A DNA stretch of 45,613 nt from Chitinophagaceae bacterium. Its GTDB lineage: Bacteria; Bacteroidota; Bacteroidia; Chitinophagales; Chitinophagaceae. Below, piece after piece: positions 7,354 through 33,010 of this stretch. Both the position numbers and the translations under genes were made by a program. The notes under the pieces were generated by a model. The model saw only the letters and a program-made list of their open reading frames with translations. It was not told where the DNA came from and did no database searches. The stretch covers positions 1-45,613 of the forward strand of contig CANGNA010000031.1 of NCBI GenBank assembly GCA_947455215.1, in the 5' to 3' direction. Numbering within the stretch: position 1 is the stretch's first letter; each line of letters begins with the position of its first letter.

Positions 7354-9432
7354 ATGAAATACTTGAATGGAACTAAGATAATATGCCTGGAGTACGGCGA
7401 GTTGGTACCTGACTTTTTAAGCGAGTCTAACTACAAGTACCACAAGAGCGCCGGTAACTTCCGGACTCACGGCAGGGGTGGTAATGGCAATAGCGTGCTG
7501 ATAGAATTTGACACCTTGCCAGTGAATTTGCAGGATAAGGTACGTGCGAAGTATGGCGCTGATCTGCACAAGCATATAGCGAAGCTGCCACTTGCTAAGA
7601 TGGTAGTGACAGACTATAAGGCGGCTAACTTCTACGCCAGCCATGTAAAGAACGGCGGTGGCCACCTGCCACTAGACCTACAGCAGCGCTACCAGCGCCA
7701 AGCAGAATGGCTGAATATGATGCAGCTGCTGCTGGACGACAAGAAGGCGCTGAAGGATACCCTGAACATAAGCATAGATACTTTTTGGGAGTATGTAATA
7801 GACCTGCACCAGGTAGACAGACCGGTGAACCCGGTATTGCCCAAGACCAAGGATAAGCTGCGCAAACTGCTGGTACGCTACAAGGAGCATGGCTACGCCA
7901 GCCTGATCAGTAAGAAGTTTGGCAACCAGAACACCCGTAAGGTGAGCCCCAAGATAGAGAACCTGATACTGAGCCTGTGGGATATGACCTATAACCCCAC
8001 GCCTGCCGAGGTATGCAGGTTGTATAAGCAGTTCATTGACGGAGCGGTAAAGGTGGTAGATACCCACCCAGAGACCGGCGGCGAAATGCTGAACCCACAG
8101 GACTTCTATGTAAAGGGTGAACCATATGCCCTGGCACAGAGCACAGTGGCTTACTACCTGAACAAACCGGCAGCGCAGATTGCGGTGAACGCCCGCAGGC
8201 TGAAAAAGCTGGAGTTTGTGATCGGCTACCGCCCATACGTGCAGCGCCTGGCCCCTCAGTATGCCTTCAGCAAGATCACTATGGATGACCGCGACCTGCC
8301 ATTTAAGGACATGGTTGGCGAGCGCGCAGTGAAGACCTACCAGATAATGGACGTGGCCAGTCAGTGCATCATAGGCAAGGCATACAGCAGGGACAAGAAC
8401 GTGGAGCTGATCCGAGAAGCCTTCAGGGACATGTACCAGATGATCATCTGCAACGGCTGGGGTTTTCCTGCCGAGGTAGAAATGGAGCGCCACCTGACCA
8501 GCCAGATGATGGGTAAGGAAGTAGACGGCGACTTTGAGGACGATATACTGACGGCAGGTAACCTATTTAAGTTCACCCGCGTATGTATGGGTGGCAATGC
8601 CCCAGAGAAAAGGGCTGAGCATATCTTCCGCCACAAGAAGTACACATTCGATAACAAGCGCCCAGGGTTCCAGGGTAGGTTCTACGCCCGGAACGTGGCC
8701 TACAGGCTGAACGCCGACAAGGAAAACAATGTGCGCTACCTGTATGAGCAGATAGTACAAAACGACCTGGACGATATAGACAGCTGGAACAACAGCCTGC
8801 ACAGTGACCAGGAGAAATACCCCGGCATGACGCGCATGGAAGTGCTGGAAAACTGCCAGAACCCGAACCTGATACACCACCCGGCCAGCAGCGTGATGCA
8901 ATACATAGGCTACAAGAACCGTGAGACCAGCCTGCGCAGGGGCTACATACAAGTGCAGGGTAATAGTTACCGCCTGCCCAATATCAACATACTGCGGGAA
9001 CTGCCGCACTGGAATTTCGACGCGTACTACATACCCGGACCTAATGGTATTGAAAAGGTGTACCTGTACCAGGGCAAGAAGTTCATTACCGAGGCAGCGC
9101 GGGTGGTGGCATTCCAGGAAGCGCAGGCAGAAATGACCGATGCAGACCGGAGGGAAGCGGAAAAGCAGTGGGCATACCAGAAGGCATTTGACACGATGTA
9201 CAAGGAGCTGCGCGGCAAGATAATGCGGGTTGGAACGGCGGTTTTTGACGGTTTTGATGCCGCTGACAGCCTGAAAGTGGCTGAAATGGTACCGGTTTCT
9301 GCACCTGTTTACGATGATTTTCAGGCTAAAAAGGGCAGTAAAAAGGGGGGGTATAAGCAAAAAAGCGCCCCTTACATACCTCCTGACGTGGACATAGACA
9401 GCATCGAAAACCGCGCCCAGTGGGCTTTATAA
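7354..9432 (+). CDS. Mu-like transposase (MuA), integrase-core fold
   Basis: 692 residues. The N-terminal 250 hold DNA-binding segments. The catalytic core has the first Asp in 'TMDDRDLP' (D311/D312), the strand 'YQIMDVASQCIIGKAYSRDK' (332-351), a helix with 'PAEVEMERHL' (about 372-381) and an 'EKRAEH' motif (about 417) typical of Bacteroidetes Mu-like transposases, followed by 'KRPGFQGRFY'. It should cut and join phage ends for integration and replicative transposition. The canonical second Asp is not obvious; an acid in 'EVEMERHL' may serve. The C-terminal 60 residues are basic, fitting interaction with the MuB-like ATPase encoded downstream. Confidence 0.88.
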   Translation: MKYLNGTKIICLEYGELVPDFLSESNYKYHKSAGNFRTHGRGGNGNSVLIEFDTLPVNLQDKVRAKYGADLHKHIAKLPLAKMVVTDYKAANFYASHVKNGGGHLPLDLQQRYQRQAEWLNMMQLLLDDKKALKDTLNISIDTFWEYVIDLHQVDRPVNPVLPKTKDKLRKLLVRYKEHGYASLISKKFGNQNTRKVSPKIENLILSLWDMTYNPTPAEVCRLYKQFIDGAVKVVDTHPETGGEMLNPQDFYVKGEPYALAQSTVAYYLNKPAAQIAVNARRLKKLEFVIGYRPYVQRLAPQYAFSKITMDDRDLPFKDMVGERAVKTYQIMDVASQCIIGKAYSRDKNVELIREAFRDMYQMIICNGWGFPAEVEMERHLTSQMMGKEVDGDFEDDILTAGNLFKFTRVCMGGNAPEKRAEHIFRHKKYTFDNKRPGFQGRFYARNVAYRLNADKENNVRYLYEQIVQNDLDDIDSWNNSLHSDQEKYPGMTRMEVLENCQNPNLIHHPASSVMQYIGYKNRETSLRRGYIQVQGNSYRLPNINILRELPHWNFDAYYIPGPNGIEKVYLYQGKKFITEAARVVAFQEAQAEMTDADRREAEKQWAYQKAFDTMYKELRGKIMRVGTAVFDGFDAADSLKVAEMVPVSAPVYDDFQAKKGSKKGGYKQKSAPYIPPDVDIDSIENRAQWAL

Positions 9433-9766: not shown

Positions 9767-10687
9767 ATGCAGATCACACAGGAAATCAAGTCGAAGATCG
9801 TATCAGCGCTGCTGGACGACCTGAAGATGCGCCAGAAATCGGATAGCGGTTACAAGGAAGCGCAGCATGCCAATTACCTGAGCATTCACACCGCCCAATA
9901 TTCCCGCATTAAGCGTGGCGACCTGGAAAAGGTGCTGAGCGAAAGCGAATGGGTTCGCATAGCTAAGAAGCTGTTTGTAGACCTGAGTGATCATCGCTGG
10001 AATAACGCTAAAACGGTGGTTCTGAACTTCATCACCAGCCAGCTGGAGTTTTGCCAGGAGCGCAGTACCTGCGGCTTGTGCTGTGACCTGGTAGGGATAG
10101 GTAAAACGCATGCAGCACAGCTATATGCAGCATCGCGACAGAACGTGGTGTATGTAAAGTGTTTCCCTGGCATTACCCGCGCTGAACTGATCCGCTTTAT
10201 GGCCGAATGCCTGGGCTTAAGTTCTGACGGTACTGTGGCAAGGGTACGCCGGAGCGTAGTTGCTGAACTGCGCAGACTGAAAACACCGATAGTGATACTA
10301 GACGACGGTGGTTACCTGAACGATAACAGCTGGATGGAAGTAAAGGGCCTACTGGACGACGTAGAATTTGTGTGCGGATGGTATGTAATAGGTGATACCA
10401 GCCTGCAAAAGAAGATACAAAGGCTGCTAGCCAAGGACAAGGATGGATGGCAGGCGCTATTCGATAGGTTTGGCCGGAAGTTCCAGACCATCACCCATCA
10501 ATTTGGAAGCGATGCTGAAGTGGCTATCATGCGCCGCGCTGATGCCGACAGAATACTGAAAGCCAATATTCCGAATATAACGCCTGAACTGCGTACCACT
10601 ATACTGAACACAGCGGGCACATCGCTGAGGGTGCTGCGCAGGGAGATCACCAAGCATAAGTACCTGAAGCCTGAAGAAGTAGCCTAA
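9767..10687 (+). CDS. MuB-like AAA+ ATPase, transposition target selector
   Basis: 306 residues. An N-terminal segment to about 95 with an HTH-like stretch, then the ATPase: Walker A 'DLVGIGKT' (107-114) and Walker B 'PIVILDD' (174-180), followed by 'GDTSLQKKIQRLL' and an arginine-rich C-terminal lid. MuB polymers bind target DNA, activate MuA and give target immunity; the position after the transposase supports the same role. The Cys cluster 'CGLCCD' just before Walker A is unusual. Confidence 0.83.
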   Translation: MQITQEIKSKIVSALLDDLKMRQKSDSGYKEAQHANYLSIHTAQYSRIKRGDLEKVLSESEWVRIAKKLFVDLSDHRWNNAKTVVLNFITSQLEFCQERSTCGLCCDLVGIGKTHAAQLYAASRQNVVYVKCFPGITRAELIRFMAECLGLSSDGTVARVRRSVVAELRRLKTPIVILDDGGYLNDNSWMEVKGLLDDVEFVCGWYVIGDTSLQKKIQRLLAKDKDGWQALFDRFGRKFQTITHQFGSDAEVAIMRRADADRILKANIPNITPELRTTILNTAGTSLRVLRREITKHKYLKPEEVA

Positions 10688-12048: not shown

Positions 12049-12582
12049 ATGGCAAAGACAACGAGAAGGAAAAGCGAGAAGCTGAGCAACATCATCAGCA
12101 AGGAAGAGTTTGATACAGCGCTGAAAGAATACAGCGCCAAGAGCATAGCCCTGGACAAAAAGAAGGCAGACCTGGAAGAAGAGCTACAGGAAATACGCGA
12201 GGACTATGCTACCGACATAGACCTATTAACAGCGCAGCAAAAGGTACATTTTGCCACAATAAAGGCATACTGCATAGAGCACCGAGAAGAACTGCTGGTA
12301 GATAAGGCTAAGAGCTTCGAGACACTGTATGGTAAAATAGGTTTTAGGAAAGACCCGCCTTCTATTAAAACGGCATCTGGTGTAACGGTTGCTGTATTGC
12401 TCACCAGGCTGAAGGAATCGGGCCTTGTAAAGTATATACGAACAGTTGAAGAACCGAATAAGGAACTGTTACTGGCAGACCGTGATACAGAGATCAGGAG
12501 CCTGTTCCCTGAACTGGGCATCAAGATAGCAGCGGATGAGACCTTTTACGTAGACCTGAAGAAGGAGGAGGTGCCTGTCTGA
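12049..12582 (+). CDS. gam: Mu Gam-like DNA-end protection protein
   Basis: 177 residues. The long N-terminal coiled coil ('ALDKKKADLEEELQEIRE', about 35-80) followed by 'SFETLYGKIGFRKDPPSIK' and a C-terminal domain ending 'ETFYVDLKKEEVPV' is the hallmark of the Mu Gam-like family, a Ku-like dimer that coats double-strand ends against host exonucleases. The stop TGA 12580-12582 lies inside a dispersed repeat beginning at 12576, so the last two or three codons come from the repeat. Confidence 0.85.
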   Translation: MAKTTRRKSEKLSNIISKEEFDTALKEYSAKSIALDKKKADLEEELQEIREDYATDIDLLTAQQKVHFATIKAYCIEHREELLVDKAKSFETLYGKIGFRKDPPSIKTASGVTVAVLLTRLKESGLVKYIRTVEEPNKELLLADRDTEIRSLFPELGIKIAADETFYVDLKKEEVPV

Positions 12583-13162: not shown

Positions 13163-13561
13163 ATGGAGAATACACATTACAAAAGCATCAAAACGATTGA
13201 TGCAGCGCTGGCAGCTAAAGGCTATGATCTTGCGCAGGTAGAAGAAATGTTTGCCGCAGTGCCAGATGAGCTGCGAAAAGGCATCATAAAGACATTTACA
13301 CGGGAGCTTATTATCTCTGCAATTAATGGTACCTGGAAAGCAGACTATAGCAATAGGAAACAAAAGAAGTGGTTTCCCTGGTATGTGGTGCAGAACGAAG
13401 AGCCTTCTCCCGCTGTTGGCTTGTCGCTGGACGTCTGCCGCTACGATCGCGCGCGTGCGAGCGTCGGGCCCCGCCACACTTTTGAAACGGAAGAGCAAGC
13501 GAGGCATTATGCGACCTACTTCCGTGAGTTTGACGAACAATATTATTCACAAAACAACTAA
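13163..13561 (+). CDS. DGR target protein 1 (variable protein)
   Basis: 132 residues. N-terminal helical part ('KTIDAALAAKGYDLAQVEEM'), then 'WKADYSN...KWFPWYVV' (about 57-75), the variable stretch 'AVGLSLDVCRYDRARASVG' (about 83-101), and a C-terminal helix 'QARHYATYFREFDEQYY'. This order resembles a family of small Bacteroidetes phage proteins whose invariant members carry 'YYPWF...VGSRLxF...A.Y...F...Y'. Codons 81-103 form a variable repeat differing from the template at 14007-14075 only at template adenines. Variable residues here are D, V, R, R, R, S, G. No signal peptide, so probably cytoplasmic. The partner recognised by the variable face is unknown. Confidence 0.88.
   Translation: MENTHYKSIKTIDAALAAKGYDLAQVEEMFAAVPDELRKGIIKTFTRELIISAINGTWKADYSNRKQKKWFPWYVVQNEEPSPAVGLSLDVCRYDRARASVGPRHTFETEEQARHYATYFREFDEQYYSQNN
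13405..13473 (+). other. DGR variable repeat VR1
   Basis: 69 bases aligned without gaps to the template 14007-14075. All 55 non-adenine template positions are identical; 10 of 14 template adenines are changed (six to G, three to C, one to T). The 3' boundary is the GC-rich GGGCCCCG, the expected initiation-of-homology side. Confidence 0.95.
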
Positions 13562-13569
13562 TACACATC

Positions 13570-13974
13570 ATGGCTTACACTGAAATAACAACAATTGAAG
13601 CTGCACTGGCTAAAAAAGGTCTAACAATGCCAATGATCGAAGAGATGCATAAGGCATTACCCGAGGAGTACCGTACGGAAAAGGTGGTATCGTTTGCCTT
13701 GGACTTGGTGGAAGACGTCCTGAATTCTGACGATCCAATTGACTGGAGTAACACAGACAAACCTAAATGGCGTTTGTGGTATTGGATCGAGGACGCCTCA
13801 GATGAAGACGGTTCTCCCGCTGTTGGCTTGTCGCTGGGCGGCTGCGGCTACGATGGCGCGGTTGCGGGCGTCGGGCCCCGCCGCGCGTTCGCCTCGGAAC
13901 CGATTGCTCGCCACGCCTGGCAGTACTTCAAAAAATACTACGAGCTGGAGTTTTCCAGAGGTAAGCTGAAATAG
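13570..13974 (+). CDS. DGR target protein 2 (variable protein)
   Basis: 134 residues, a paralogue of 13163-13561 starting 8 bases after its stop. Shared features: 'TTIEAALAKKGLTMPMIEEM', 'DWSNTDKPKWRLWYWIED' (about 57-74), the variable stretch 'AVGLSLGGCGYDGAVAGVG' (83-101 region), and 'IARHAWQYFKKYYELEF' at the end. Six of the seven variable codons here read Gly and one Val. Tyr and Asp between them (TAC GAT) keep their adenines in both targets and the template, suggesting structural constraint. Cytoplasmic by absence of a signal. The N-terminal halves have diverged far more than the repeats, so both genes appear to be kept and re-diversified. Confidence 0.88.
   Translation: MAYTEITTIEAALAKKGLTMPMIEEMHKALPEEYRTEKVVSFALDLVEDVLNSDDPIDWSNTDKPKWRLWYWIEDASDEDGSPAVGLSLGGCGYDGAVAGVGPRRAFASEPIARHAWQYFKKYYELEFSRGKLK
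13812..13880 (+). other. DGR variable repeat VR2
   Basis: 69 bases aligned without gaps to the template. 12 of 14 adenines changed (eleven to G, one to T); no change at any of the 55 other positions. One further shared base (G 13811) precedes it. Confidence 0.95.
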
Positions 13975-14006
13975 AGAATAAGGTTGTGTGCCGTCTGCCG
14001 GTTCAG

Positions 14007-14075
14007 TTCTCCCGCTGTTGGCTTGTCGCTGAACGACTGCAACTACGATAACGCGAATGCGAACGTCAGGCCCCG
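14007..14075 (+). other. DGR template repeat (TR) and template RNA region
   Basis: Lies between the stop of target 2 (13974) and the RT start (14186), in the same orientation. In the target frame it would read SPAVGLSLNDCNYDNANANV: the hypervariable codons are AAC/AAT/GAC/AGG, the usual DGR design that lets adenine mutation reach many residues without stops. The 3' flank diverges after CCCCG (AATT in the template, CC in both targets), as expected for the mutagenic-homing boundary. The following 110 bases have no ORF and probably form the RNA segment recognised by the RT. Confidence 0.95.
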
Positions 14076-14185
14076 AATTGCTGAAAATGAAATTACCGGC
14101 ACAAACCCTGGCTACAGTCCAAAAAATAACTGCTTCAAACGGGCATTGGTAGCGTAAGCGAATATGACCAAAATAGCAAGGCGTA

Positions 14186-15223
14186 ATGAAAAGAAAAGGA
14201 AGTTTATATGCTGCGGTATGTAGCCTGGATAATCTGGAGCTGGCAGATCAGCGCGCCAGGATAGGGAAAAGTAAGCAAAAAGGGGTGCTTATACATGACC
14301 AGAACAGGGCTGCTAACTTGCTATCGCTGCAAGAGCAACTTGCAAACAAAACATACAAGACAAGCAGATACGATGTGTTTATAATCCGAGATCCCAAAGA
14401 GCGGGAAATATACAGGCTGCCTTACTTTCCAGACCGTATTGCCCACCATGCAATAATGAACGTACTAAAGCCGATACTGCTACCGGTATTTACAGCAGAT
14501 AGCTATAGCTGCATAGAGGGTAAAGGGACGCATTCAGCATCTAGGGCGTTACAAACGGCGCTGAAGGATAAAGCAGGGACAGTTTATGGCCTTAAGCTTG
14601 ACATAAGAAAGTTCTATCCTTCAATAGATCATGCGATACTCAAACAACTGCTCAGGAGAAAAGTAAAGGATGCAGACCTGCTGTGGCTGATAGATGAGAT
14701 CATCGACAGCGCTCCAGGACTGCCCATTGGCAACTATTTGAGCCAGTACCTGGCAAATTTCTACCTAACCTACTTTGATCACTGGCTGAAAGAGGAAAAG
14801 AAGGTGAAGTACTACTTCCGGTATGCAGATGACATAGTGGTATTGGGGCCAGATAAGCCATATCTGCACCAGGTATTGGGCGAAATAAGGCTATACCTGG
14901 AGACGGAGTTAAAACTTGAGATAAAGGGAAATTACCAGGTGTTTCCTGTAGTAGCGAGAAGCTTAGACTTTGTTGGATACAGGCACTACCATACACATAA
15001 ATTATTGAGGAAGCGTATCAAGCAGCGCTGGGCGCGTAATAGAAACCCGAAGGCTGAGCCATCGTATAAAGGACTGGCGAAGCATTGTGATGCGATACAC
15101 TTAACTAAGAAATTGAACCATGAACAGATTCAGCGAGCTGAACATAAAAGTAGAAACAACTCATTTCAAGGGCGAGAAGATAAAAATTGCCAGAGTACTC
15201 AACAGAGAGATCACCGTTCATAA
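14186..15223 (+). CDS. DGR reverse transcriptase
   Basis: 345 residues. Motif A 'GLKLDIRKFYPSI' (Asp139), motif B 'GLPIGNYLSQ' (178-187, the xxGxxxSQ form typical of DGR enzymes), motif C 'YADD' (213-216), the motif D region near 233-250 and motif E 'LDFVGYRHY' (260-268) are present and intact. The enzyme copies the template RNA into adenine-mutated cDNA for homing into the variable repeats. The last ~35 residues overlap the next ORF by 104 bases in another frame and are polar and low in pattern, so the conserved protein may effectively end near 'LTKKLN' (~310). No maturase or endonuclease domain. Confidence 0.95.
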   Translation: MKRKGSLYAAVCSLDNLELADQRARIGKSKQKGVLIHDQNRAANLLSLQEQLANKTYKTSRYDVFIIRDPKEREIYRLPYFPDRIAHHAIMNVLKPILLPVFTADSYSCIEGKGTHSASRALQTALKDKAGTVYGLKLDIRKFYPSIDHAILKQLLRRKVKDADLLWLIDEIIDSAPGLPIGNYLSQYLANFYLTYFDHWLKEEKKVKYYFRYADDIVVLGPDKPYLHQVLGEIRLYLETELKLEIKGNYQVFPVVARSLDFVGYRHYHTHKLLRKRIKQRWARNRNPKAEPSYKGLAKHCDAIHLTKKLNHEQIQRAEHKSRNNSFQGREDKNCQSTQQRDHRS

Positions 15224-15413
15224 ATACAAAATTGAGCAATCGAAAGTGAACACCGGCCAGTGTCTGCACATGGAGATAACTATAGGGGCCACAAGTCATG
15301 TAGTGTTTACTGGAAGCAATAATCTACAAGAGCAGATCAAGCAGGTGCCACCAGATAAGTTTCCATTTTCCACCATCATTATTCAAGAGAACGAAACATA
15401 CACATTTACATAA
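15120..15413 (+). CDS. DGR-associated small protein overlapping the RT
   Basis: 97 residues starting inside the RT gene. Pattern 'MNRFSELNIKVE', 'FKGEKIKIARVLNREITVHK', 'HVVFTGSNNLQEQIKQVP', 'FPFSTIIIQENETYTFT': a compact alpha/beta protein with a ligand-binding look ('VVFTGS'). It is not the four-helix Avd accessory protein. The overlap suggests translational coupling with the RT. I recall similar small proteins in Bacteroidetes phages, without known function, so a DGR role is inferred from position only. Confidence 0.6.
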   Translation: MNRFSELNIKVETTHFKGEKIKIARVLNREITVHKYKIEQSKVNTGQCLHMEITIGATSHVVFTGSNNLQEQIKQVPPDKFPFSTIIIQENETYTFT

Positions 15414-20150: not shown

Positions 20151-20218
20151 ATCAAATGGCTGATGTGCTGAGGATAACTTTAACCGGTTATGCCCTCGGG
20201 AACGCATCAGCCATTTTT
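20151..20218 (+). ncRNA. Candidate small RNA, antisense within the head operon
   Basis: Starting about 5 bases after the consensus -7 box, the + strand forms a 12-bp stem (AAATGGCTGATG 20154-20165 with CATCAGCCATTT 20205-20216), an inner stem GAGG-ATAAC/GTTAT-CCTC, and ends in TTTTT. So promoter, structured body and terminator fit in under 110 bases. There is no ORF. On the opposite strand it is the gap between the F-like and G-like genes. Confidence 0.5.
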
Positions 20219-21480
20219 CATTTCCTAAACAGCAGTGTTCCCGATCTAAGATTGTTTACAGCTGTAGCATTAATTTCTCCCTTTTTGCTGAGCCTATGGC
20301 GAGTAAGTGTGAACGCCTGGAGATCATCAACCATGATACTATACGGGAAGTCGTCATAGTACTTTAAATACACAGTTCGCAATTTGCCGTCTGCCCCCTT
20401 GTTTGACCATACCTCATCCGGGTCAGCGATGATATCTATAGTATTTTGGACGTACAGGTATCTGAACTCATTATTTTGTTCGAAGACATGGTTTCTAAAC
20501 CCGTTATCGAAACTTAATACACTGCCAAAGCAATCTTTAGCATAGAAAGAACCTTTTGCTGTTCCGGCCTGCTCTGCCCACCATTTATTGGCTGCTGCCT
20601 TCGTATCCACTGTTTTTGCGGTTGGCCACCGGTCGATGTAAATGCGATCCAGTGACTGCATATTATAGCCGTTCTGCCAGTTGAGTGATTTACGCCGCAA
20701 GCCATCCATATAGGGGTAGTCTTTTTCAAATACCACTTTGCTTATCGCCGGATTGGACTGGAAGTAAGGCTTTACGCCAGCGTCCTTCAGCATTTGCTTC
20801 GGGTCGGTGTGCTTTTTGATATTGCGCTCGACGCCGGGTATCAGCTTGCAATTGCAATTAGGGTGGAATGGAGGGCATAGGGTTGCCCATATTGTGGCGC
20901 TTTTAGGCCGTGTAAAGCCATTAAGCCCGCCACAAACCGGGCATACGTTCTCAGCGCCGGTAGAGCGAACCTCTATTATATCCTCATCAGCAAATTCATT
21001 GAAGGATTGCGCGATCTGCGTTGATGCCAGGGCTGTATCATAGTCGGTTTTGAGGTGGGTGATATTAAACACCTTGCCCGCCTTGGTCACATCGTTGCGG
21101 AATTGGGTGAACGGTTTGATCTTGCCATCGTCGCCGATCATGAGATCGTTGAACACCTGCATTTCCTTCAGAGACTTGGCAGCGCTGAACGCGTAGATGT
21201 TTTGGCGCAGGTATGCCACCAGGAGATTGTTGGGGTCTTCGTAGGCAAAGGTTTTGCGATCGCCTAATCCGGAAAAGACTGCGTTCATTAATTCTCCTGC
21301 AGTGGCTTCATAGAGTTCTCGGGGTATTGTGCCCTGTGTGATCTTGGCGGCATGCAGCTGCTCGGCAATGCGATCGCAAATAGCTGTGAAGTCGGGGCCA
21401 TCGGCAGCCATGCGGACATGAGCAGCCTGGTGGCCGTGTTGCATGCCACCGTATTGCAGCTGCAGCTGCTTCATTGCCAT
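20218..21480 (-). CDS. Mu F-like minor head protein with nuclease-like C-terminal domain
   Basis: 420 residues. Residues to about 240 are the Mu F/SPP1 gp7-like minor head domain, ending in a zinc site 'ENVCPVCGGLNGF...LCPPFHPNCNCKLIP'. The C-terminal 140 ('AKDCFGSVLSFDNGFRNHVF', 'NTIDIIADPDEVWSN', 'YLKYYDDFPYSIMVDD', 'FTLTRHRLSK') resemble the phage Barnase-EndoU-Colicin-RelE-like (PBECR) nuclease domains fused to such proteins. It may therefore be a virion protein that delivers an RNase into the cell. Its start overlaps the portal stop by one base. Confidence 0.75.
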   Translation of the reverse strand: MAMKQLQLQYGGMQHGHQAAHVRMAADGPDFTAICDRIAEQLHAAKITQGTIPRELYEATAGELMNAVFSGLGDRKTFAYEDPNNLLVAYLRQNIYAFSAAKSLKEMQVFNDLMIGDDGKIKPFTQFRNDVTKAGKVFNITHLKTDYDTALASTQIAQSFNEFADEDIIEVRSTGAENVCPVCGGLNGFTRPKSATIWATLCPPFHPNCNCKLIPGVERNIKKHTDPKQMLKDAGVKPYFQSNPAISKVVFEKDYPYMDGLRRKSLNWQNGYNMQSLDRIYIDRWPTAKTVDTKAAANKWWAEQAGTAKGSFYAKDCFGSVLSFDNGFRNHVFEQNNEFRYLYVQNTIDIIADPDEVWSNKGADGKLRTVYLKYYDDFPYSIMVDDLQAFTLTRHRLSKKGEINATAVNNLRSGTLLFRK

Positions 21481-22874
21481 CAGCCCTCTATACTGAGGGC
21501 GCTGCCGAAAAAATCGGTTAACGTTTGCTGCATCATAGCCTGTACCTGATCCGGGGTCATTGCCATAGTGGCCGGTGCTGCGGGTTTCTTTTTAGGCGCT
21601 GCTTTGGCCAGTTTACCCTTCGGGGCAGGCTTGGCTTCATCGGCATCGGGTTCGGTTTCATCGCCGTCGGGCTCCTGGGTGCTGCCGAGTATAACTAGCT
21701 GCTCACCGGGTTCGGGCATTGGTATGTTGTAAGTTTCGTACAGGTATTTAGCAGATACTGGCAGACCTGCTTGCAATAAGGGTAGGTCTACTTTTATCTT
21801 TTGCTGTAGAAAGTCGACATCTACCTCGCCAACATACTCGAAGTGGCCATCGCCGACCTTATATCCATAGCGGGCTAAAATACCCAGGAACTTGTCTGAA
21901 TTGAGCATGTCCAATTCAAAGTCCATATCCTCCTTGGTGAGCTGCTTTTGCTCATTCTGGTGTACCAGGGACTTTGCACCGGTGCCTCCCTTGCCGTTTG
22001 TTGACGTTTCTGTGTTGCCGGTGATGATCAGGGACATCTCCTGATTAAGGCGCTCGACAAATGTGTCCTGGAGAGAGCCGTCGCCGTTGGAGGTTTTCCC
22101 GTCGACGATCTGGAAGTCCATCTCTTTGGTGATGGCGATCTTCAGGCTATTGCCGGATTTGTCTATGATATCCTTAGCCTGCTTTTTGCTCTGCAGATCG
22201 TTGCCGCCATATTTGAGCACCATTACCGGAGAGCCGTAGAGCTCCACGTATTCGGCCCAGTTGCTGATAGCGCCTTTTTTGAGCAGCGCATAAAAGCCGC
22301 AGATGGTGAGCAGACCGAGGTCGTTCGGATCGCCGATAACCCAGAGGTTCCAGAAGTCGGGATAGAATACCCCTTCACCGCCCCACTGCTCGCGCGTGAT
22401 CAGCTGGTTCTTCATATCGATATGCTTACGCGGCACTTCGTTAAATGCCAACTTTTTGCCAGGGACAAACTCCAGGCCGGAGCGACCATGCATTTTAGAC
22501 ATGATAAACTGGCGGCGTACATCGCTGAACACCTTGGAGTCGATCAGCTTGTCCATTTCATCGACCTTTTTCTCGCCGACCTTAAACACCAGTTTTTTAT
22601 TGATGACACTGGCCACTCGCTTTTTGATCAGGCCTGACAGGTGCGCATCGAGCAGGATGTCGGTGTGCATGTCGAACAAAGGGACGAAGTTTGGCCTGTA
22701 AACTGACTCGGCAGATACAATGCCAGTGCGCCAGGTACCGACGTCCTTTTTGGTGCGGTTGTTGGACCGCAGTACCATTTCTTCCGTTATGCGGGTTTCC
22801 TGTGTTCCGTTATCCTGTGGCACGTTAACGGTCTGGGTACTATTGGCGGGTGTTTTACGTGTTTCGTTTGCCAT
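21480..22874 (-). CDS. Portal protein, DUF935 (Mu gp29)
   Basis: 464 residues. 'HTDILLDAHLSGLIKKRVAS', 'KMHGRSGLEFVPGKKLAFNE', 'GDPNDLGLLTICGFYALLKK' and 'SNWAEYVELYGSPVMVLKY' are the run of motifs of the Mu gp29 portal family. Forms the dodecameric DNA gate of the head. The C-terminal 70 residues are a Lys/Ala/Pro-rich tail ('KPAPKGKLAKAAPKKKPAAP') that is probably disordered. Confidence 0.88.
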   Translation of the reverse strand: MANETRKTPANSTQTVNVPQDNGTQETRITEEMVLRSNNRTKKDVGTWRTGIVSAESVYRPNFVPLFDMHTDILLDAHLSGLIKKRVASVINKKLVFKVGEKKVDEMDKLIDSKVFSDVRRQFIMSKMHGRSGLEFVPGKKLAFNEVPRKHIDMKNQLITREQWGGEGVFYPDFWNLWVIGDPNDLGLLTICGFYALLKKGAISNWAEYVELYGSPVMVLKYGGNDLQSKKQAKDIIDKSGNSLKIAITKEMDFQIVDGKTSNGDGSLQDTFVERLNQEMSLIITGNTETSTNGKGGTGAKSLVHQNEQKQLTKEDMDFELDMLNSDKFLGILARYGYKVGDGHFEYVGEVDVDFLQQKIKVDLPLLQAGLPVSAKYLYETYNIPMPEPGEQLVILGSTQEPDGDETEPDADEAKPAPKGKLAKAAPKKKPAAPATMAMTPDQVQAMMQQTLTDFFGSALSIEG

Positions 22875-22875
22875 A

Positions 22876-23325
22876 TTAGTAGCGGTTGTTTGCTTTTTCG
22901 TTAGATACTGCTATTACTTCTATGCTCTCCGGAGTGGTGACACCGGTGTAGTCCTGGTATGGCCAGCGTGGGTCAGCCTTTCCGCTCTGTATATCTTTCA
23001 GGATAGCCTTCATTTCATCTTTGCGGCTTTTCCAAGCATCGTAGTCGAGGTTTGGCCGTGCCAGGGTCATGAGGTTCCAGACGGATAGCGTTTTAATGAT
23101 GTTTAAAAGCAGATCGTCTGGCGGGAATGTGGCAGCTGTATCGGTAGCCTGATCGCCAAATATGGCCATGAGATCGTACCGAGTGAGGTAGAGCTTTGCC
23201 TCTGCAATGGCCTGGGAAACGGCAGTAGTAATAACTGTAGTGTCGTTCTCTGCTATCTCGTTTATGATGCCCTCATACACGTGTGTTTTGAGGTCTGCCG
23301 GTAAAACTATTGGTGTGTAAGCCAT
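22876..23325 (-). CDS. Head-tail connector, DUF1320 (Mu gp36)
   Basis: 149 residues from ATG 23323-23325 (MAYTPIVLPADLK), one base after the terminase stop; a longer reading with 19 more residues overlaps the terminase and has no support. 'AEAKLYLTRYDLMAIFGDQA' and 'DAWKSRKDEMKAILKDIQSG' fit DUF1320, an adaptor at the head-tail joint. Confidence 0.75.
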   Translation of the reverse strand: MAYTPIVLPADLKTHVYEGIINEIAENDTTVITTAVSQAIAEAKLYLTRYDLMAIFGDQATDTAATFPPDDLLLNIIKTLSVWNLMTLARPNLDYDAWKSRKDEMKAILKDIQSGKADPRWPYQDYTGVTTPESIEVIAVSNEKANNRY

Positions 23326-23326
23326 A

Positions 23327-24907
23327 TCAGTAATGTGTTTTAGATGAATGAGTGCGCTCCTGGTACATAACCTCATTTGCATGGGCTACGTTGCGCGTTT
23401 TTAATATGTGGATTCCGCCCTCTATGCAGTCCGGACCGTCTAACTGCTTACTTGAAGGTTTAGCGATAAGAAACTGCCGTTCCAGGCGTAACATGTGCGG
23501 ATTGCCTTTTTCTGCCTCGTTGAAGATCAGATTGCCAGACCTGTTAATAGGCTCAAGGGTGGCCTCTACTCGCGTCCATTTTGCTGGCTTTTCACGTGTA
23601 TCTTGCGTGGGGTATAAGTAGCCACGTGTATCACCATATTCAAATATCCTTTCCTGCAACACCTGTTCAAAAAATGGGTTTTGCAGCTTGTTGTTCTCTA
23701 TATGAAAGGAAATGTCCCTTCGTCCATCAACATAGTCGCGGCATAGAAAAAGCGTATCGACGAAACGATCTGTGCCCATAACGTCCAGAAAGCCATAGTA
23801 TATAAAATACCGTTTGCCCTTCCGTCCTATCACAAAAGTCGCTTTGCGGCTGTTACCGGTATTATCCTTAGCGCCAGGCATATCCCGGTCAGCCGGTGCA
23901 GGGTCAGAATAACCAACCAGGTCGTCCAACTCTTCGATTGGCGGGCATGCTCCCCATGTGATTTCAGGGAATGTTTGGCCGTGGGTACCAGGGTTATTAA
24001 AATACTCGCCGTCTATAGACTCCTGGCTCATGCCCTCGAGCATCTCATCTATTATCGCCTCTGTGTTCTTTTCCGGCCAAGTAGATTTACCCTCCTCATC
24101 ACGGATGTTAATGGTCTCGCTGTCTTTCGCTGTCTTAGCGAAGCGTAGCGCCAGGCAGTCTTCTGCAATAACGTTGTTATCAAAGAATATGAAATAGGGT
24201 TTGGATATTTCCACACAAGGCAATACCTGTTTCTCATACCACTTCCAGGCTTCATCCAGCCTGTCTTTGTTGCGGCAAACTTCATCATCGTCCGTATCGT
24301 CCATTATAATGAAGTTGATACGCATCTCTTCATTCTTGGAACCGCGTGGGCTTTGACCGGTACCTACAGCTTTAAGGCCAAAGCCACTATTGGAAATGAA
24401 CTTTGTCATGTCCCAGTTGCCGGGATTTTTCTGAACGCCGTAGTCTTTTATCAGCCTTTGGTTGGCTTCCAGATTGGCCATGTACGGAGCCATCAGGTCT
24501 ATGGCATTTGAATTTGACTTGGAGCAAAAGAGGCCATTGATTTGAAGGCCTAGTACAAAGTGGAGATAGAAGACTTCCAGCATGCGGCGGGTTGACTTTG
24601 CGAGGCCACGGCACCATTTGCGAGATTGGGAGAACTTACCCCAGCCTTGCGCGATCATCTCGCGGGCAGCGGCTATTAAGCGCTCAGTAGCCCGGCGTTG
24701 GAACCTGGCAGGTTTGGCAAAGCAATATTTCGGGAAATACCAGGCGAACCATTCTTCCTGATTGCCGGGTGCTTCCAGTCTTTTCTTACGCTCGCGTTGC
24801 TGCTCATCGGTCTCTTCTTCAGTAGCCGTGGAGGTCATTACACTGGCTACTAGTGCAGAAAATTCTTTTTCCCAGTCTGCAAGGGATTTTTCCTGATATA
24901 CTACCAT
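23327..24907 (-). CDS. Terminase large subunit (Mu gp28 type)
   Basis: 526 residues. ATPase: variant Walker A 'RGLAKST' (100-106) and Walker B 'FIIMDD' (199-204) followed by acidic 'TDDDE'. Nuclease domain: 'LVGYSDPAPAD' (Asp about 335) and a later 'DGPDCIEGGIHIL' (Asp near 500). It packages phage DNA from within host sequence by the headful mechanism, as in Mu. No defects seen. Confidence 0.87.
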   Translation of the reverse strand: MVVYQEKSLADWEKEFSALVASVMTSTATEEETDEQQRERKKRLEAPGNQEEWFAWYFPKYCFAKPARFQRRATERLIAAAREMIAQGWGKFSQSRKWCRGLAKSTRRMLEVFYLHFVLGLQINGLFCSKSNSNAIDLMAPYMANLEANQRLIKDYGVQKNPGNWDMTKFISNSGFGLKAVGTGQSPRGSKNEEMRINFIIMDDTDDDEVCRNKDRLDEAWKWYEKQVLPCVEISKPYFIFFDNNVIAEDCLALRFAKTAKDSETINIRDEEGKSTWPEKNTEAIIDEMLEGMSQESIDGEYFNNPGTHGQTFPEITWGACPPIEELDDLVGYSDPAPADRDMPGAKDNTGNSRKATFVIGRKGKRYFIYYGFLDVMGTDRFVDTLFLCRDYVDGRRDISFHIENNKLQNPFFEQVLQERIFEYGDTRGYLYPTQDTREKPAKWTRVEATLEPINRSGNLIFNEAEKGNPHMLRLERQFLIAKPSSKQLDGPDCIEGGIHILKTRNVAHANEVMYQERTHSSKTHY

Positions 24908-24914
24908 TTAAATA

Positions 24915-25382
24915 CTATTTAACCTTGGTACGCACGAGCGTCATTGTGAACTTTTTGAATAGCGGAGCCACAACTGCTGCGAGTTCAGGGTTTTCCTTTT
25001 TCAGCCATCCCAGGAACTCAATGCCAGCCTGATATATCTGGGACGGACCGGCTATCTTCTTCAGATACTCCAGAGATTTAGCCAGCTTAACCACGCCGTC
25101 ATTATCGGGGTTAGTCTCCGGATCATCGTCATCCAGGTATCGTTCGTTCTGCTCCAATGTTTTTTGAAGCAATCTTTCAAGCCTTGCGATCAGCTCATCC
25201 TGTGAAACAGCCAAATTGGTTTTCAACTCTGCCCAATGGTTATCATTCACCCATGCGCTCATGGTTTGCTCGGAGATATTGAGCTCTATCGCAATTGCCT
25301 TTTGATTGAGGCTGCTATGCAAGTACATGATACGTGCAGTCTCCTTTGTGACTGCCATTTCTTGCTTTTCCGCTAAAGTCAT
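24915..25382 (-). CDS. Terminase small subunit-like protein
   Basis: 155 residues. A helix-turn-helix at about 20-52 ('LNQKAIAIELNISEQTMSAW') followed by helices and 'SLEYLKKIAGPSQIYQAG', consistent with the DNA-recognition subunit (Mu gp27 position). It is the first gene of the minus head block, starting at 25382 opposite the + late block. Confidence 0.7.
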   Translation of the reverse strand: MTLAEKQEMAVTKETARIMYLHSSLNQKAIAIELNISEQTMSAWVNDNHWAELKTNLAVSQDELIARLERLLQKTLEQNERYLDDDDPETNPDNDGVVKLAKSLEYLKKIAGPSQIYQAGIEFLGWLKKENPELAAVVAPLFKKFTMTLVRTKVK

Positions 25383-25447: not shown

Positions 25448-25576
25448 GGGTGTAAAAAGTATCATGCCGAGGGTTGGCGGGTATTATGCTTTTCGGCTGT
25501 AAGCATTGTCTTTACTGCGTTTGGAGGGGCTTTCAGGCTGATGCAATTTTACATCATCGGCAACGCGCGAAGGTCG

Positions 25577-25600
25577 TCCTTCGACAAGCTCAGGATGACA
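25577..25600. repeat. 'CCTTCGACAAGCTCAGGGTGACA' family repeat
   Basis: TCCTTCGACAAGCTCAGGAT plus GACA. Other copies: 31242-31265, 32487-32510, 33667-33690, 37495-37518, 38110-38133, and a diverged host copy at 44448-44471. Confidence 0.7.
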
Positions 25601-25677
25601 ACCCGGTGCTGAAAACTATAAGTCCTGCGGTCGTACAACGAAAAGGCCGCAGGCACTTTTTAAAAGCCAACAAGAAC

Positions 25678-26790
25678 ATGCCAGGAAAGAAGGTAATAGT
25701 ACGTATGAATAGCGGCGATTGTCCGAAGCTGTACATGTATGGCTTTATTGATGCCGAAATGAGTGCGGCATTTGTAAAAGAGCTGAACTGGCTGGCTAGT
25801 TGCGGGCACAAGGAAGTAGACCTGCACATTAACAGCCAGGGCGGCAATGTAATGGACGGTGTGGCGATGATATCGGCCATGCGAAGCTGCCGGATGGAAA
25901 TAAACGGTTATGTGGACGGTATTGCTGCGAGCATGGCCAGCCTGGTAGCACTGTGCTGTAACAAGCTGTACATGAACAAATACGCCCGTATGCTGTTTCA
26001 TCAGCCGAGTGGCTTTGCGCAGGGTACAGTGGATGAGATGAGCCAGCAGGTAGAGTTCCTGAAGACCGTGCAGGATGATGCCATAGATATGTATTGCCAG
26101 CGTACCGGCATGACAGCCGAAGAAGTGAGCGCCATATTCATGAATGGCAAGGATAACATCTATACGGCTGACAAGGCCTTGGGTGCTAAACTGGTAGATG
26201 GTGTGTTTGACGGCGAAGAGGTAGAGCTGCCGGAAGATGCAACTGCGGAAGGTATATATATGGCCTTCCAAGCAAAAATGGAGTCAAAATTTAGCGACAT
26301 AATGGAAAAACAATTCTTATCTCCCAAGATGGCCACGCTGCTGGGAGTGGCAGCTGATGCCAATAGCGCAGCCGTAGAAGCTGCAATGACCGCACTGCAT
26401 GGTAAGGCCTTACAGGCTGACACTTATAAGCAGCAACTGGAAGAGCTTAACGAAAAGCTGACCGCCAACCAGGTGAAAATGAAGCTGGACAGCGCCAAAG
26501 AAAAGGGCCAGATCACCGAACAGCAGTACACTGTGTTTATGGCACAGTATGCGAAGAACCCGGACGCACTGGACGAAGTGCTGAAGACAATGGCCCCGTT
26601 TGCCAGCGTGATGACCAAGCTGAATGTACAGCCGCGACAGGAAGGCAGCCATACACCAGAGGTGAAGGCGCTGATGGCTAAGGGTTACACGGTGCTAATG
26701 AAGAGTGGCGAGATGGCGCAGCTGCACAGTATGAGCCCGGAAGCGGTACAGGAGGTAAGGGAAGCCTATTTCGCCAGCAAAAGGAAATAA
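25678..26790 (+). CDS. ClpP-like prohead protease fused to scaffold
   Basis: 370 residues from ATG 25678 (MPGKKVIVRM). A longer frame back to 25474 reads through the dispersed repeat at 25577 and encodes low-quality sequence, so I reject it. The S14 protease core has 'DLHINSQGGNVMDGVAMISA', nucleophile Ser85 in 'GIAASMAS' and His108 in 'MLFHQPSG'. After about 190 the protein becomes helical and Lys/Glu-rich ('ADTYKQQLEELNEKLTANQV'), typical of a scaffold. It should assemble with the capsid protein and clear the scaffold during prohead maturation, as gpI/Z do in Mu, though Mu uses another protease fold. Confidence 0.87.
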   Translation: MPGKKVIVRMNSGDCPKLYMYGFIDAEMSAAFVKELNWLASCGHKEVDLHINSQGGNVMDGVAMISAMRSCRMEINGYVDGIAASMASLVALCCNKLYMNKYARMLFHQPSGFAQGTVDEMSQQVEFLKTVQDDAIDMYCQRTGMTAEEVSAIFMNGKDNIYTADKALGAKLVDGVFDGEEVELPEDATAEGIYMAFQAKMESKFSDIMEKQFLSPKMATLLGVAADANSAAVEAAMTALHGKALQADTYKQQLEELNEKLTANQVKMKLDSAKEKGQITEQQYTVFMAQYAKNPDALDEVLKTMAPFASVMTKLNVQPRQEGSHTPEVKALMAKGYTVLMKSGEMAQLHSMSPEAVQEVREAYFASKRK

Positions 26791-26851
26791 TAGCAGTCAC
26801 CAGGTACCAAACGAACAAACATTAATCAACTCTTTTAATTACAAAATACAC

Positions 26852-28006
26852 ATGAAGAAACATTTCAGTATTTACCGTTTTGCCCTGGCCGTGATGATGG
26901 CAGTAGGCGCGGGAGCGATAGGCATGGCCGCATTTGGCAGCGTGCTGGCATTTTTTGTAGGCTTTGGCCTGAGCCTTTTCTTATCCCTGCTGCCGGGTAG
27001 CACAAAGGGCATGGCGTTTATGGCGCTGAACAAGGAAGTGTGGCAGGATCGCATTGAGGAAAACCTGTTCCAGGATAATCAGTTTATCCTGAAATCGGTA
27101 GACGATAGCCAGTATGTGGATAATAAAACTGTCCATATTCCTAATGCCGGTGCACCTCCAGGCGTAGAAAAGAACAGGGTGATCGATGGCACACCCACCA
27201 ACCCACAGAAGCGCGAGGACAGCGAAGTGACCTATGATATTGCTGAATTTACATCAGACCCTATTATCATTACGGATGCCGAAGAAAAGGAACTGTCTTA
27301 CGATAAGATGGACAGTGAATTGAGCGAAACACAGCTGGCGCTTGACGAACGCATCTCTGAAGACATCCTTATCAACTGGGCGCCAACAGGTACCGCGCTA
27401 CTGGCAGATGGGGTAACCACCAATAACAACATATTGCGCACTACAGGTGTGGACAGGAACGACCTGAGCAAACCGCGTGTGAAATACGCTGCGCATTTGC
27501 CTGCAGCTACCGGGGACAGGCTTGGCCTGTGTGTATATGACATTAAGCAGGCACAGACAGCCGCCAACAAGGCGCGCTGGCCGAAGAAAGGCCGCTGCGC
27601 ACTGCTGGACAGCGATATGTATGCGCAGCTTGTGCAGGATATGTCGACCACACAGTACCAGGACTTCTCGAAGGTGATAGACCCTGCGACCGGTGTTGTG
27701 GGCCAACTGTACGGCTTTACTTTCTACGAGCGTAACACCGTGCTGAAGTACACCAATGCTGACCTGCCTGCATTAAGGCCATACGGTGCAGCCGGAGCGG
27801 CTACAGATAACGCTGCCGCGCTCTTCTGGTACGAAGGATACGTAAGCCGTGCTATTGGCGAAGGCCGCTTCTTTGAGCAGAAGGATAGCCCTACCGCATA
27901 TGGTGACATGTATTCAACTCTTGTACGTGCTGGTGGTAGCAAGCGCCGTAAGACGGAAGTTGGTGTACTGGCCATAGTGCAGGCAGTGCCAGCGGTAGAA
28001 GCGTAA
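26852..28006 (+). CDS. Major capsid protein
   Basis: 384 residues, directly after the protease/scaffold, as expected. From about 53 the sequence ('FMALNKEVWQDRIEENLF', 'DNKTVHIPNAGAPPG', 'TSDPIIITDAEEKELSYDK', 'FSKVIDPATGVVGQLYGFTF') is an HK97-fold capsid protein of Bacteroidetes Mu-like phages. The first 50 residues are strikingly hydrophobic ('FALAVMMAVGAGAIGMAAF', 'VLAFFVGFGLSLFLSLLPG'). An internal ATG at 27010 would give a conventional capsid start, so the hydrophobic leader may be a removable delta domain, a membrane anchor, or a misread start. Confidence 0.82.
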   Translation: MKKHFSIYRFALAVMMAVGAGAIGMAAFGSVLAFFVGFGLSLFLSLLPGSTKGMAFMALNKEVWQDRIEENLFQDNQFILKSVDDSQYVDNKTVHIPNAGAPPGVEKNRVIDGTPTNPQKREDSEVTYDIAEFTSDPIIITDAEEKELSYDKMDSELSETQLALDERISEDILINWAPTGTALLADGVTTNNNILRTTGVDRNDLSKPRVKYAAHLPAATGDRLGLCVYDIKQAQTAANKARWPKKGRCALLDSDMYAQLVQDMSTTQYQDFSKVIDPATGVVGQLYGFTFYERNTVLKYTNADLPALRPYGAAGAATDNAAALFWYEGYVSRAIGEGRFFEQKDSPTAYGDMYSTLVRAGGSKRRKTEVGVLAIVQAVPAVEA

Positions 28007-28009
28007 GCC

Positions 28010-28047
28010 AAATTTCAAAATCCAAATTCCAGGAACCAAGTTCCAAT
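28010..28047. repeat. 'CCAAATTCCAGGAACCAAG' repeat
   Basis: Copy of the family also seen at 10691-10711, 30829-30857 and 32471-32483. It begins next to the capsid stop and abuts the hairpin at 28049. Confidence 0.55.
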
Positions 28048-28048
28048 A

Positions 28049-28090
28049 CTTAAGCCGGTAAGTGCCACGAGGGTGGCGCACCGGCTTAAG
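28049..28090. other. Strong stem-loop after the capsid gene
   Basis: Outer 11-bp arms CTTAAGCCGGT/ACCGGCTTAAG (28049-28059, 28080-28090) with an inner GCCAC/GTGGC stem. No T tail on the + strand, so it is less a terminator than an RNA processing or stability element shielding the abundant capsid message. Dispersed-repeat origin is also possible. Confidence 0.5.
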
Positions 28091-28124
28091 GTAGTAGAAA
28101 CAGTTAACAACAAAAACGAACTAC

Positions 28125-28694
28125 ATGAAGAGATTTTTGGTAATAGCCCACTGCGCGATCGTAATAGCGAGTACGGCTTGTATTAAAGCTACCGCCCAGC
28201 CAATGCAGGTACAAACGATCGAGGCGAAGGGCTCGTTCAACAATGGCGGCTCTGCAGCCAGGACAAAGTACAAGATCACAGACATGCCGCTGGTGACAAC
28301 ATCGAGGACGGTAACACTGAGCACAGCTGACACGCTGACCGAGCAGCTGTATGGTGTGTATAACGGCAGCACGTGGGTGTTTACCGTAGACAGCGTGGCC
28401 GGAAGGGTGGACAGCGTGACGATCACCTTCCAGGGCAGCGTGGACAGCGGGACAGCGGTGGACTATGCGACGGTGCAGACGTTTACCTGTGCTAACCAGG
28501 CTAAGAATGCCTTCTATTATTCTTTTACCGGCAATCCGTTTAAAAGTTACCGGGCACTGCTGAAGACAACCAATAAAGCAGCTGGTAGCAATGCCAGGAT
28601 AAAAGGAAAGCTACTTGTACGCTATAAGGACGAAGAGTGGTGGGAAGATAATGGCGAAATGGCTCAATGGCTTAATGGCTCAATTCCACTGTAG
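28125..28694 (+). CDS. Protein with signal peptide, head region, unknown function
   Basis: 189 residues. MKRFLVIAHCAIVIASTACI followed by KATAQP is a Sec signal (cleavage after Ala, or a lipoprotein Cys19). The remainder is a Thr/Ser/Val-rich beta domain ('VTLSTADTLTEQLYGVY', 'SVTITFQGSVDSG'). In this position phages often have a capsid decoration protein, yet decoration proteins are not normally exported. The last dozen residues ('EMAQWLNGSIPL') are encoded by the dispersed repeat at 28658-28685. Confidence 0.6.
   Translation: MKRFLVIAHCAIVIASTACIKATAQPMQVQTIEAKGSFNNGGSAARTKYKITDMPLVTTSRTVTLSTADTLTEQLYGVYNGSTWVFTVDSVAGRVDSVTITFQGSVDSGTAVDYATVQTFTCANQAKNAFYYSFTGNPFKSYRALLKTTNKAAGSNARIKGKLLVRYKDEEWWEDNGEMAQWLNGSIPL
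28658..28685. repeat. 'AATGGCTCAATGGCTTAATGGC' repeat in coding sequence
   Basis: Lies inside the 3' end of the 28125-28694 gene. Other copies: 31099-31134, 35698-35733, 36384-36420. Confidence 0.65.
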
Positions 28695-28721
28695 TTCTTT
28701 GACATGTTATAAAACAACTTT

Positions 28722-28755
28722 ACCCCGTACCTGGTTAACACCGGGACGGGGTTTT
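28722..28755 (+). terminator. Rho-independent terminator
   Basis: ACCCCGT/ACGGGGT (28722-28728, 28746-28752) with an inner CCTGGT/ACCGGG stem, TAAC loop and TTTT at 28752-28755. It ends the capsid transcript after 28694. Confidence 0.8.
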
Positions 28756-28775
28756 GAGGTGCAACCACTTTATAA

Positions 28776-29054
28776 ATGGCTTCACACAATACGCATAGCA
28801 TAATGCCAGACGCTACCGGGATTTTCCTAGTGGCCAGCAGCTGGACAACTCAATGGGCGGGACTAGTAGAAAAGGTAAGTCCTTATTTCAAAGCAGGTAT
28901 GTTCTGCCTGTCGGCCCTACTGACTACGCTTGCGATAGTGGACTACAGCATGAAGATAAGCTGGAAGCTGAAGCAAAGGAAACGCAGCAAGTTGAGGTGC
29001 AGCTGCATAGAGGAATGCGCCAATATAAAGGCGCTGAAGGAGGAATACAAGTAG
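28776..29054 (+). CDS. Small membrane protein, lysis region
   Basis: 92 residues, or 83 from the alternative ATG 28803 (MPDATGIFLV). One clear transmembrane stretch ('AGMFCLSALLTTLAIVDYSM', about 41-60) followed by a very basic tail ('KLKQRKRSKLR') and a Cys-containing end. By its neighbours (another small membrane protein, spanin-like, endolysin) a holin or antiholin is possible. Confidence 0.5.
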   Translation: MASHNTHSIMPDATGIFLVASSWTTQWAGLVEKVSPYFKAGMFCLSALLTTLAIVDYSMKISWKLKQRKRSKLRCSCIEECANIKALKEEYK

Positions 29055-29078
29055 ATGGCTCAATAAAAAAATAGCAAT

Positions 29079-29339: not shown

Positions 29340-29393
29340 CAAAGCAGAGCGTTGCCCACCTGATCATTTAAATAGTGTTTAAAGACAAACCAT

Positions 29394-30586: not shown

Positions 30587-30614
30587 TAACGACACTTAAT
30601 TCAATTTTTCAAAT

Positions 30615-31265: not shown

Positions 31266-31291
31266 TTAAGGAACAAAAATTTAATATAAAT

Positions 31292-32467: not shown

Positions 32468-32470
32468 ATA

Positions 32471-32510
32471 AGTACCAGGAACCGAGCCCTTCGACAAGCT
32501 CAGGGTGACA
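32471..32510. repeat. Adjacent 'CCAGGAACC' and 'CCTTCGACAAGC' repeats
   Basis: Two repeat families side by side in the 84-base gap between the sheath and tube genes, 3 bases after the stop. Confidence 0.65.
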
Positions 32511-32980: not shown

Positions 32981-33010
32981 TCCAATTTCAACACCATTAA
33001 TTTTTATAAA

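Follow-up and report, generated by a model that had tools for sequence, protein, structure and literature searches.

The 45,613-nucleotide stretch analysed here (Chitinophagaceae bacterium, assembly GCA_947455215.1, contig CANGNA010000031.1, positions 1 to 45,613 of the forward strand; hereafter the window) carries a diversity-generating retroelement (DGR) in the early region of a Mu-like prophage. It consists of two tandem target genes, a template repeat (TR), a reverse transcriptase (RT) and a small downstream open reading frame (ORF), and each target holds a variable repeat (VR) that departs from the template only at adenines (Table 1). We read this cassette as the DGR of a Mu-like Bacteroidota prophage that rewrites two early-region binding proteins, presumably expressed early and acting inside the cell, and give this reading as a whole a probability of about 0.78. 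In the consulted parts of the literature, the targets of most phage DGRs are tail proteins, diversified for adsorption. That a widespread lineage directs its DGR at paired early-region proteins would point to a further use of hypermutation in intracellular recognition, and the family defined here, with its targets, its RNA and a candidate accessory protein, is available for testing this idea.

Organization of the cassette

An initial annotation of the DNA had placed three repeats at these coordinates and counted changes at 10 and 12 of the 14 template adenines, all of which was reproduced: over the 69 aligned bases neither VR differs from the template at any of the other 55 positions. The probability that every difference sits on a template adenine by chance is 2.9e-9 for VR1 and 1.0e-11 for VR2. 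The 25-base, adenine-free 5' part of the repeat is present at 13405, 13812 and 14007. Two template adenines, of the codons TAC and GAT, are kept as A in both targets. A to G accounts for 17 of the 22 differences in the two repeats. This excess of G is general to the lineage, since the core template adenines of 205 related VRs have become G 1245 times, T 623 times and C 361 times, with 1210 kept as A.

One adenine, at 14068, is G in both VRs of the window. The same replacement is seen across the lineage: of the 168 VRs (out of 205) in which the template motif could be located, 164 have G for its A. This looks like a fixed difference between template and target rather than free diversification. 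Such a difference at the 3' boundary could correspond to the initiation of mutagenic homing pair (IMH/IMH*), or it could result from selection on the protein.

The two targets are paralogues (41% identical), and their VRs end about 28-30 residues ahead of the C terminus. The RT has the motifs GLPIGNYLSQ and YADD, and the homology search that the initial annotation had proposed returned relatives that are 57-66% identical and mostly adjoin TR/VR pairs. As such, its description of an RT with intact DGR motifs and of a DGR with two tandem targets is borne out, the latter also by related loci, 85 of 96 of which have at least two VRs within 1.5 kb ahead of the template.

Table 1. Features of the cassette, its template RNA and the neighbouring transposition genes (window coordinates; HMM, hidden Markov model).
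Feature	Position	Strand	Evidence
MuA-like transposase	7354..9432	+	phrog_310, E 1.9e-37; no Pfam match
MuB-like transposition protein	9767..10687	+	phrog_296, E 8.7e-21; AAA_22, E 1e-9
Mu Gam-like protein	12049..12582	+	PF07352, E 5.6e-28
Target 1, 132 aa	13163..13561	+	holds VR1 in frame; phrog_11581 (function unknown), E 1.4e-12
Variable repeat 1 (VR1)	13405..13473	+	10 differences from TR, all at A
Target 2, 134 aa	13570..13974	+	holds VR2 in frame; family HMM, E 5.2e-31
Variable repeat 2 (VR2)	13812..13880	+	12 differences from TR, all at A
P1 stem, 5' arm, GGTTGTGTGCCG	13982..13993	+	covarying stem in 89-sequence alignment
Template repeat (TR)	14007..14075	+	between target 2 stop and RT start
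P1 stem, 3' arm, CGGCACAAACC	14097..14107	+	same 89-sequence alignment
Hairpin P2	14109..14121	+	3 pairs, 100% of cells paired
Hairpin P3/P4	14141..14169	+	consensus structure of 89 template regions
DGR-type RT, 345 aa	14186..15223	+	PF00078 (RVT_1), E 2.8e-16; phrog_1423, E 3.3e-118
Downstream ORF, 97 aa, candidate DGR accessory protein	15120..15413	+	overlaps RT end; phrog_19665 (function unknown), E 2.3e-9

A lineage of paired small targets

Relatives of the RT were taken from the best 80 of 591 confirmed matches in viral contigs and from 80 of 138 in bacterial genomes. The bacterial relatives are labelled mostly Bacteroidota, with some Ignavibacteria, and a few assembled genomes are labelled Helicobacteraceae, Lachnospiraceae, Clostridia or Ruminococcus. 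A scan for repeats differing only at adenines separated two classes of cassette, one with a short template and small targets and the other with a template of about 98-126 bases and one large target. Near-copies were removed ahead of the counts (24 ids, recognised by BLAST or by matching coordinates and identities); the L077 and L079 contigs are 99.7% alike. The short-template class comprised 98 non-redundant loci, or 96 after L129 and L162 (lectin-type, with a TR detected in pieces) were moved to the large-target class, which thereby grew from 32 to 34; figures given per 98 or 32 loci, together with the sets of 87 targets and 205 VRs, predate this move. Left out were a further 24 loci in which no TR/VR was detected, some of them incomplete or reversed and unscanned.

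Pairing is regular within the small-target class. There are two VRs in 70 of the 96 loci, three in 17, four in one and one in eight, and five of these eight have fewer than 600 bases of sequence ahead of the template. The last two VRs are 350-500 bases apart in 82 of the 85 loci with at least two close to the template, and the gap between TR and RT is 85-125 bases in 89 of 98 (a set that includes L129 and L162). VRs also lie more than 2.5 kb from the template in seven loci, and a third target of genome G609, about 10 kb off, also copies the template, its untrimmed match having 17 changes at adenines and two elsewhere. The division into small and large targets needs 3 changes on the RT tree, against about 29 when shuffled, and may go back to a single origin. 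One locus (L057:3257-5881) has a single RT and two templates, for a small target and for a 451-residue tail target.

The target protein family

An HMM trained on 87 target proteins of the lineage matches target 1 at E 2.5e-37, which, like the value for target 2, is to be read with the window's own rows of both targets in the training alignment. Target 2 gave no match in the Pfam and PHROG scans. A family member of at least about 97 residues is present in 93 of the 96 small-target loci, and in the remaining three (L004, L024, L025) the sequence ends too early. Among large-target loci the model matches only L057, with its second template for that target. The targets are without a characterised homologue: 81 of 87 match the functionally unassigned phrog_11581, and one has a match to Pfam DUF2761 below the cut-off. 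The first of the paired targets is usually the longer, compared with 132 and 134 residues in the window, and in locus L049 both are joined in frame in a 292-residue protein that keeps both VRs.

A first AlphaFold2 (AF2) model of a target was poor in the VR and gave no useful fold match. For a typical family member, AF2 predicted helices around a variable loop with a mean confidence (pLDDT) of 90.8, and 62-78 in the VR region. Foldseek searches with this modelled target found no PDB match at E<=0.001 and five matches among viral models, all uncharacterised and one of them crAss-like. The C-type lectin fold, which is usual but not obligatory for DGR targets, is not predicted for the modelled member, with limited confidence in the VR. 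Comparison with the profile of 27 lectin-type tail targets of the same RT lineage aligned only a 28-column VR core (hhalign probability 92.7) with the shared motif SGF..VGSRLCF. The two types of target thus have a VR core in common and different scaffolds, because the alignment is confined to that core, and the small target may be a reduced lectin or an independent graft of the VR core.

The family is sparsely distributed in bacterial genomes: members occur in 2 of the 298 genomes scanned from the order and in 3 of the 395 from the phylum (the window's own included in both), and the target pairs in those genomes adjoin an RT. The single target of genome G654 has no RT within the 1.5 kb fetched on either side. 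With target 1 as the only query, 50,697 phage records gave no match, whereas matches were obtained with L034, a more typical member. Viral contigs scanned with a single family member gave 26 loci, with an RT in the fetched stretch of 15 and not in that of 11. Three of the latter (L192, L198, L201) end soon past the target and L189 has 1.8 kb behind it, while L194 and L196 have 4-5 kb behind it and L200 and the remote L202-L205 about 5 kb on each side. Family members outside a cassette therefore exist, and some may be distant targets as in G609. L202-L205 carry a domain with the motif NEGWQPDW in longer phage proteins, remote relatives of the targets lacking a VR-like loop, and this domain is a possible non-diversified ancestor. 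In L192 (4971-5762) the target domain and an extra C-terminal part share one 264-codon frame, close to the end of the fetched sequence, which shows no RT.

Diversification in a sister phage

Evidence for diversification comes from the L040 group, near-identical contigs of one sister phage from different metagenomes. Compared with L040, the contigs L035, L041 and L044 have 6, 13 and 12 differences within one VR each, all at template adenines, and 0, 0 and 1 differences elsewhere over 4.8-6.9 kb, with an identical TR. The DGR lineage is read as active because these contigs differ almost only at template adenines inside one VR. The initial annotation had expected variants at adenines with an invariant template, which is what was found in this one group, as distinct from the window prophage. 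The DGR of the window is most likely functional still.

A structured template RNA

The template appears to lie within a conserved RNA. An alignment of 89 template regions was obtained from the 98 loci after removal of six whose region was not extractable and three of the remaining 92 that had a gap outside 85-125 bases or were cut at an edge. Its consensus has a 12-pair stem, P1, around the template, followed by a short hairpin and then a second stem, and 20 of 22 consensus pairs change on both sides. Paired cells amount to 96.1%, compared with 34-46% when the structure is slid along the alignment, and changes on both sides number 433, where shuffling gives a mean of 100. The covariation test used the alignment from which the structure had been derived, but the excess is large nonetheless. 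All arms of the RNA are present in the window. Of the short-template loci, 87 of 115 with copies counted fit a loose P2 pattern, as do 18 of the 32 large-class loci. No Rfam family matched at threshold, with two sub-threshold minus-strand matches only. In large-class loci (L120-L171), parts of the same RNA pattern are found in the 200 bases before the RT, some with an apparently much longer P2.

The downstream 97-residue protein

A homologue of the downstream ORF is present in 69 of 96 small-target loci, starting 844-973 bases past the RT start in 66 of the 69. Large-target loci have one in 18 of 34 cases, 11 of these at 1354-1420. Similarly, five of 395 genomes of the phylum (the window's included) encode a homologue, in all five cases beside an RT that is 47-100% identical to that of the window. 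The protein, which has no PDB match, looks from its distribution like a dedicated DGR partner, presumably in an accessory role, and the initial description of an accessory-type ORF agrees with this linkage. The common, though not obligatory, accessory protein Avd had no match among five small ORFs near the cassette in Pfam and PHROGs, libraries that were not checked for an Avd model. Together, the covarying RNA and the DGR-linked protein offer handles on how a template is chosen and copied in DGRs without a recognisable Avd.

Prophage context

The initial assignment to a Mu-like prophage is upheld by the MuA-, MuB- and Gam-like genes of Table 1 and by a Mu-type portal (Portal_Mu, PF06074). A sub-threshold match to an S24-type repressor was also found, and a threonyl-tRNA synthetase gene lies to the left of the prophage. 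The cassette follows Gam and two small ORFs and precedes an ATPase-like gene, with head and tail genes further on. Across the lineage, families found 5' of the targets include RecT, primase, HNH endonuclease, helicase, methyltransferase and Gam (proteins of at least 110 residues, three per locus; 148 of 216 scanned, 25 of 144 families listed). MuB homologues occur in 17 and MuA homologues in 10 of the 98 short-template loci, and neither in the 32 large-class loci. The large-target sister DGRs adjoin tail, tape-measure and endolysin families.

In the window, minor head, portal and terminase genes lie on the minus strand (20218-25382) and protease, capsid and tail genes on the plus strand (25474-42450), a split that is unusual for a Mu-like late region. 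A D12-class adenine methyltransferase gene (41677-42450) stands at the right end of the prophage. In Mu, the DNA modification gene mom is located at the right end.

Proposed mechanism and alternatives

In the proposed mechanism, the template would be transcribed within the structured RNA, with P1 enclosing it and P2 and P3 after it, and the RT, perhaps aided by the 97-residue protein, would copy it with errors at adenines. The cDNA would then replace the VRs of the two adjacent paralogues, one template thus serving to rewrite both; these steps are adopted because reverse transcription and replacement are established DGR biology in BPP-1. The products would be small, mainly helical proteins with a displayed variable loop, encoded in the early region between Gam and the head and tail genes. 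Their most likely task would be intracellular binding of a variable partner in a conflict between phage and host or between phages, such as counter-defence or the exclusion of other phages; taken alone, such a role is plausible at somewhat less than even odds. A more speculative and rather doubtful idea is that the two targets make up a two-chain receptor, both chains being diversified by one template to give a combinatorial, antibody-like recognition in the infected cell. It is suggested by the regular pairing of two paralogues and by the natural in-frame fusion in L049.

Several observations weigh against this account or parts of it. The evidence for activity comes from one phage group and not from the window phage, of which no close relative was found. 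Within that group, L039 differs from L040 at 13 template adenines in VR1 and nine in VR2, the latter with two further non-adenine differences and one more just outside VR2 (shared part only, the unshared end dropped), and L037 was left out as misaligned. The cassette is present once in its genome, where no variant population was seen. Folded alone, the window RNA does not adopt the consensus structure and is less stable than its shuffles (z +1.97). The structural block is also near, as head and neck families start about 4-7 kb 3' of the RT in 10-15 loci, and phages can place genes for virion parts outside that block.

The last of these points bears on an alternative in which the targets are virion or surface proteins whose genes lie apart from the tail module, with a DGR that widens adsorption as in BPP-1 or Hankyphage. 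The VR core shared with lectin-type tail targets fits that view, as do the L162 tail target, whose last 52 residues match phrog_11581 (E 4.3e-7), a weak match of 1 of the 87 targets to a baseplate wedge family (E 1.3e-4) and the Bacteroides phage BI-TP1, whose template recodes both an Mtd_N-annotated tail protein and a relative of the targets, gp84. However, the profile likeness stops at the VR core, the scaffold model has no PDB match at E up to 0.001 and only viral-model matches of no assigned function, and the targets sit beside Gam and replication genes, which makes a virion role unlikely. Slightly less so is the suggestion that the paired proteins are made in the lysogen and guard host and prophage from other phages as a prophage-encoded variable defence. 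In Mu the transcript carrying the transposition genes is silent in the lysogen, and the targets lie 3' of such genes, so their transcript should be silent too. On the other side stand their non-structural position and hypervariability, and a DGR-based defence has been proposed for bacteria (PMC10053308, in the part consulted).

Two further alternatives concern the cassette itself. It could be a relic with a genuine pattern and lost activity, for which its single copy and the lack of a visible variant population would speak, but the reading frames of its RT, of the two targets and of the conserved downstream protein are uninterrupted and the arms of the template RNA are present, and we regard this as improbable. 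That the pattern arose from ordinary duplication and mutation instead of reverse transcription is barely credible: the window targets are indeed paralogues, but all 22 window differences are at adenines, and the contigs of the L040 group contradict it. A scan with G as the template base also gives pairs in 25 of 96 loci, as expected because changed template adenines mostly become G (one VR against the TR or another VR), whereas pairs appear in just 1 of 96 loci with C and in 5 of 96 with T; the A scan, with 96 of 96, is no test, as the loci were chosen on A. Intracellular binding proteins rewritten by a DGR remain the preferred reading.

Comparison with known systems

The cassette resembles that of BPP-1 in its RT, TR, VR and adenine mutagenesis (PMC3240598, as far as its text was available). 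It differs in that the VRs are internal, no lectin fold is predicted and no Avd was matched, and the GC-rich hairpin or cruciform that follows the VR in BPP-1 shows no excess in the lineage (stems of at least 7 pairs within 50 bases at 2 of 205 VRs, 1.5 expected). Choice of the target site may therefore differ from that in BPP-1. Hankyphage is likewise a transposable Bacteroidota phage with a DGR, but in the available part of its description the repeats are 117 bp and a very large protein carries the VR at its C terminus (PMC6199706), compared with 69-bp repeats within two small early-region proteins in the window. The contrast drawn in the initial annotation, with a tail-fibre target in Hankyphage, is consistent with this source.

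Non-structural targets have precedents. In the accessible text, Quimbyvirus has a second DGR target that is non-structural and described with a C-type lectin domain (PMC8008677), and four prophage species have a distal second VR near counter-defence genes (PMC12629997, from the part seen). A family query matched BI-TP1 gp84 and LoVEphage records (E 2e-11 to 1e-8). The gp84 gene lies apart from the structural module, with genes for methyltransferases, a TIGR02757 protein and a tRNA ligase as neighbours. Its VR departs only at adenines from the template that adjoins the RT and that also serves the tail protein gp12. The neighbourhood of gp84 agrees with that of the Quimbyvirus second target as far as published there, and the two are linked on this basis.

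Among the papers listed in literature searches, titles and the beginnings of abstracts gave no description of the paired tandem form, which supplements may catalogue, for example among the target clusters of PMC8144416, nor of a covarying RNA stem enclosing a template or a conserved 97-residue protein behind an RT without an Avd match. DGRs with several VRs are similar in that one template serves several paralogous targets, and their examples, in the portions consulted, are mostly DUF1566, FGE-sulfatase or adhesin-like, with the present family unnamed among them (PMC3521204, PMC6642488). Quimbyvirus and BI-TP1, on the available accounts, have one such target, distant from the RT, and a template in common with a tail protein, whereas the window lineage has two or more tandem targets directly 5' of a template of their own. 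The DGR itself and a non-structural second target were already known, and the regular tandem pairing of two small targets may be new.

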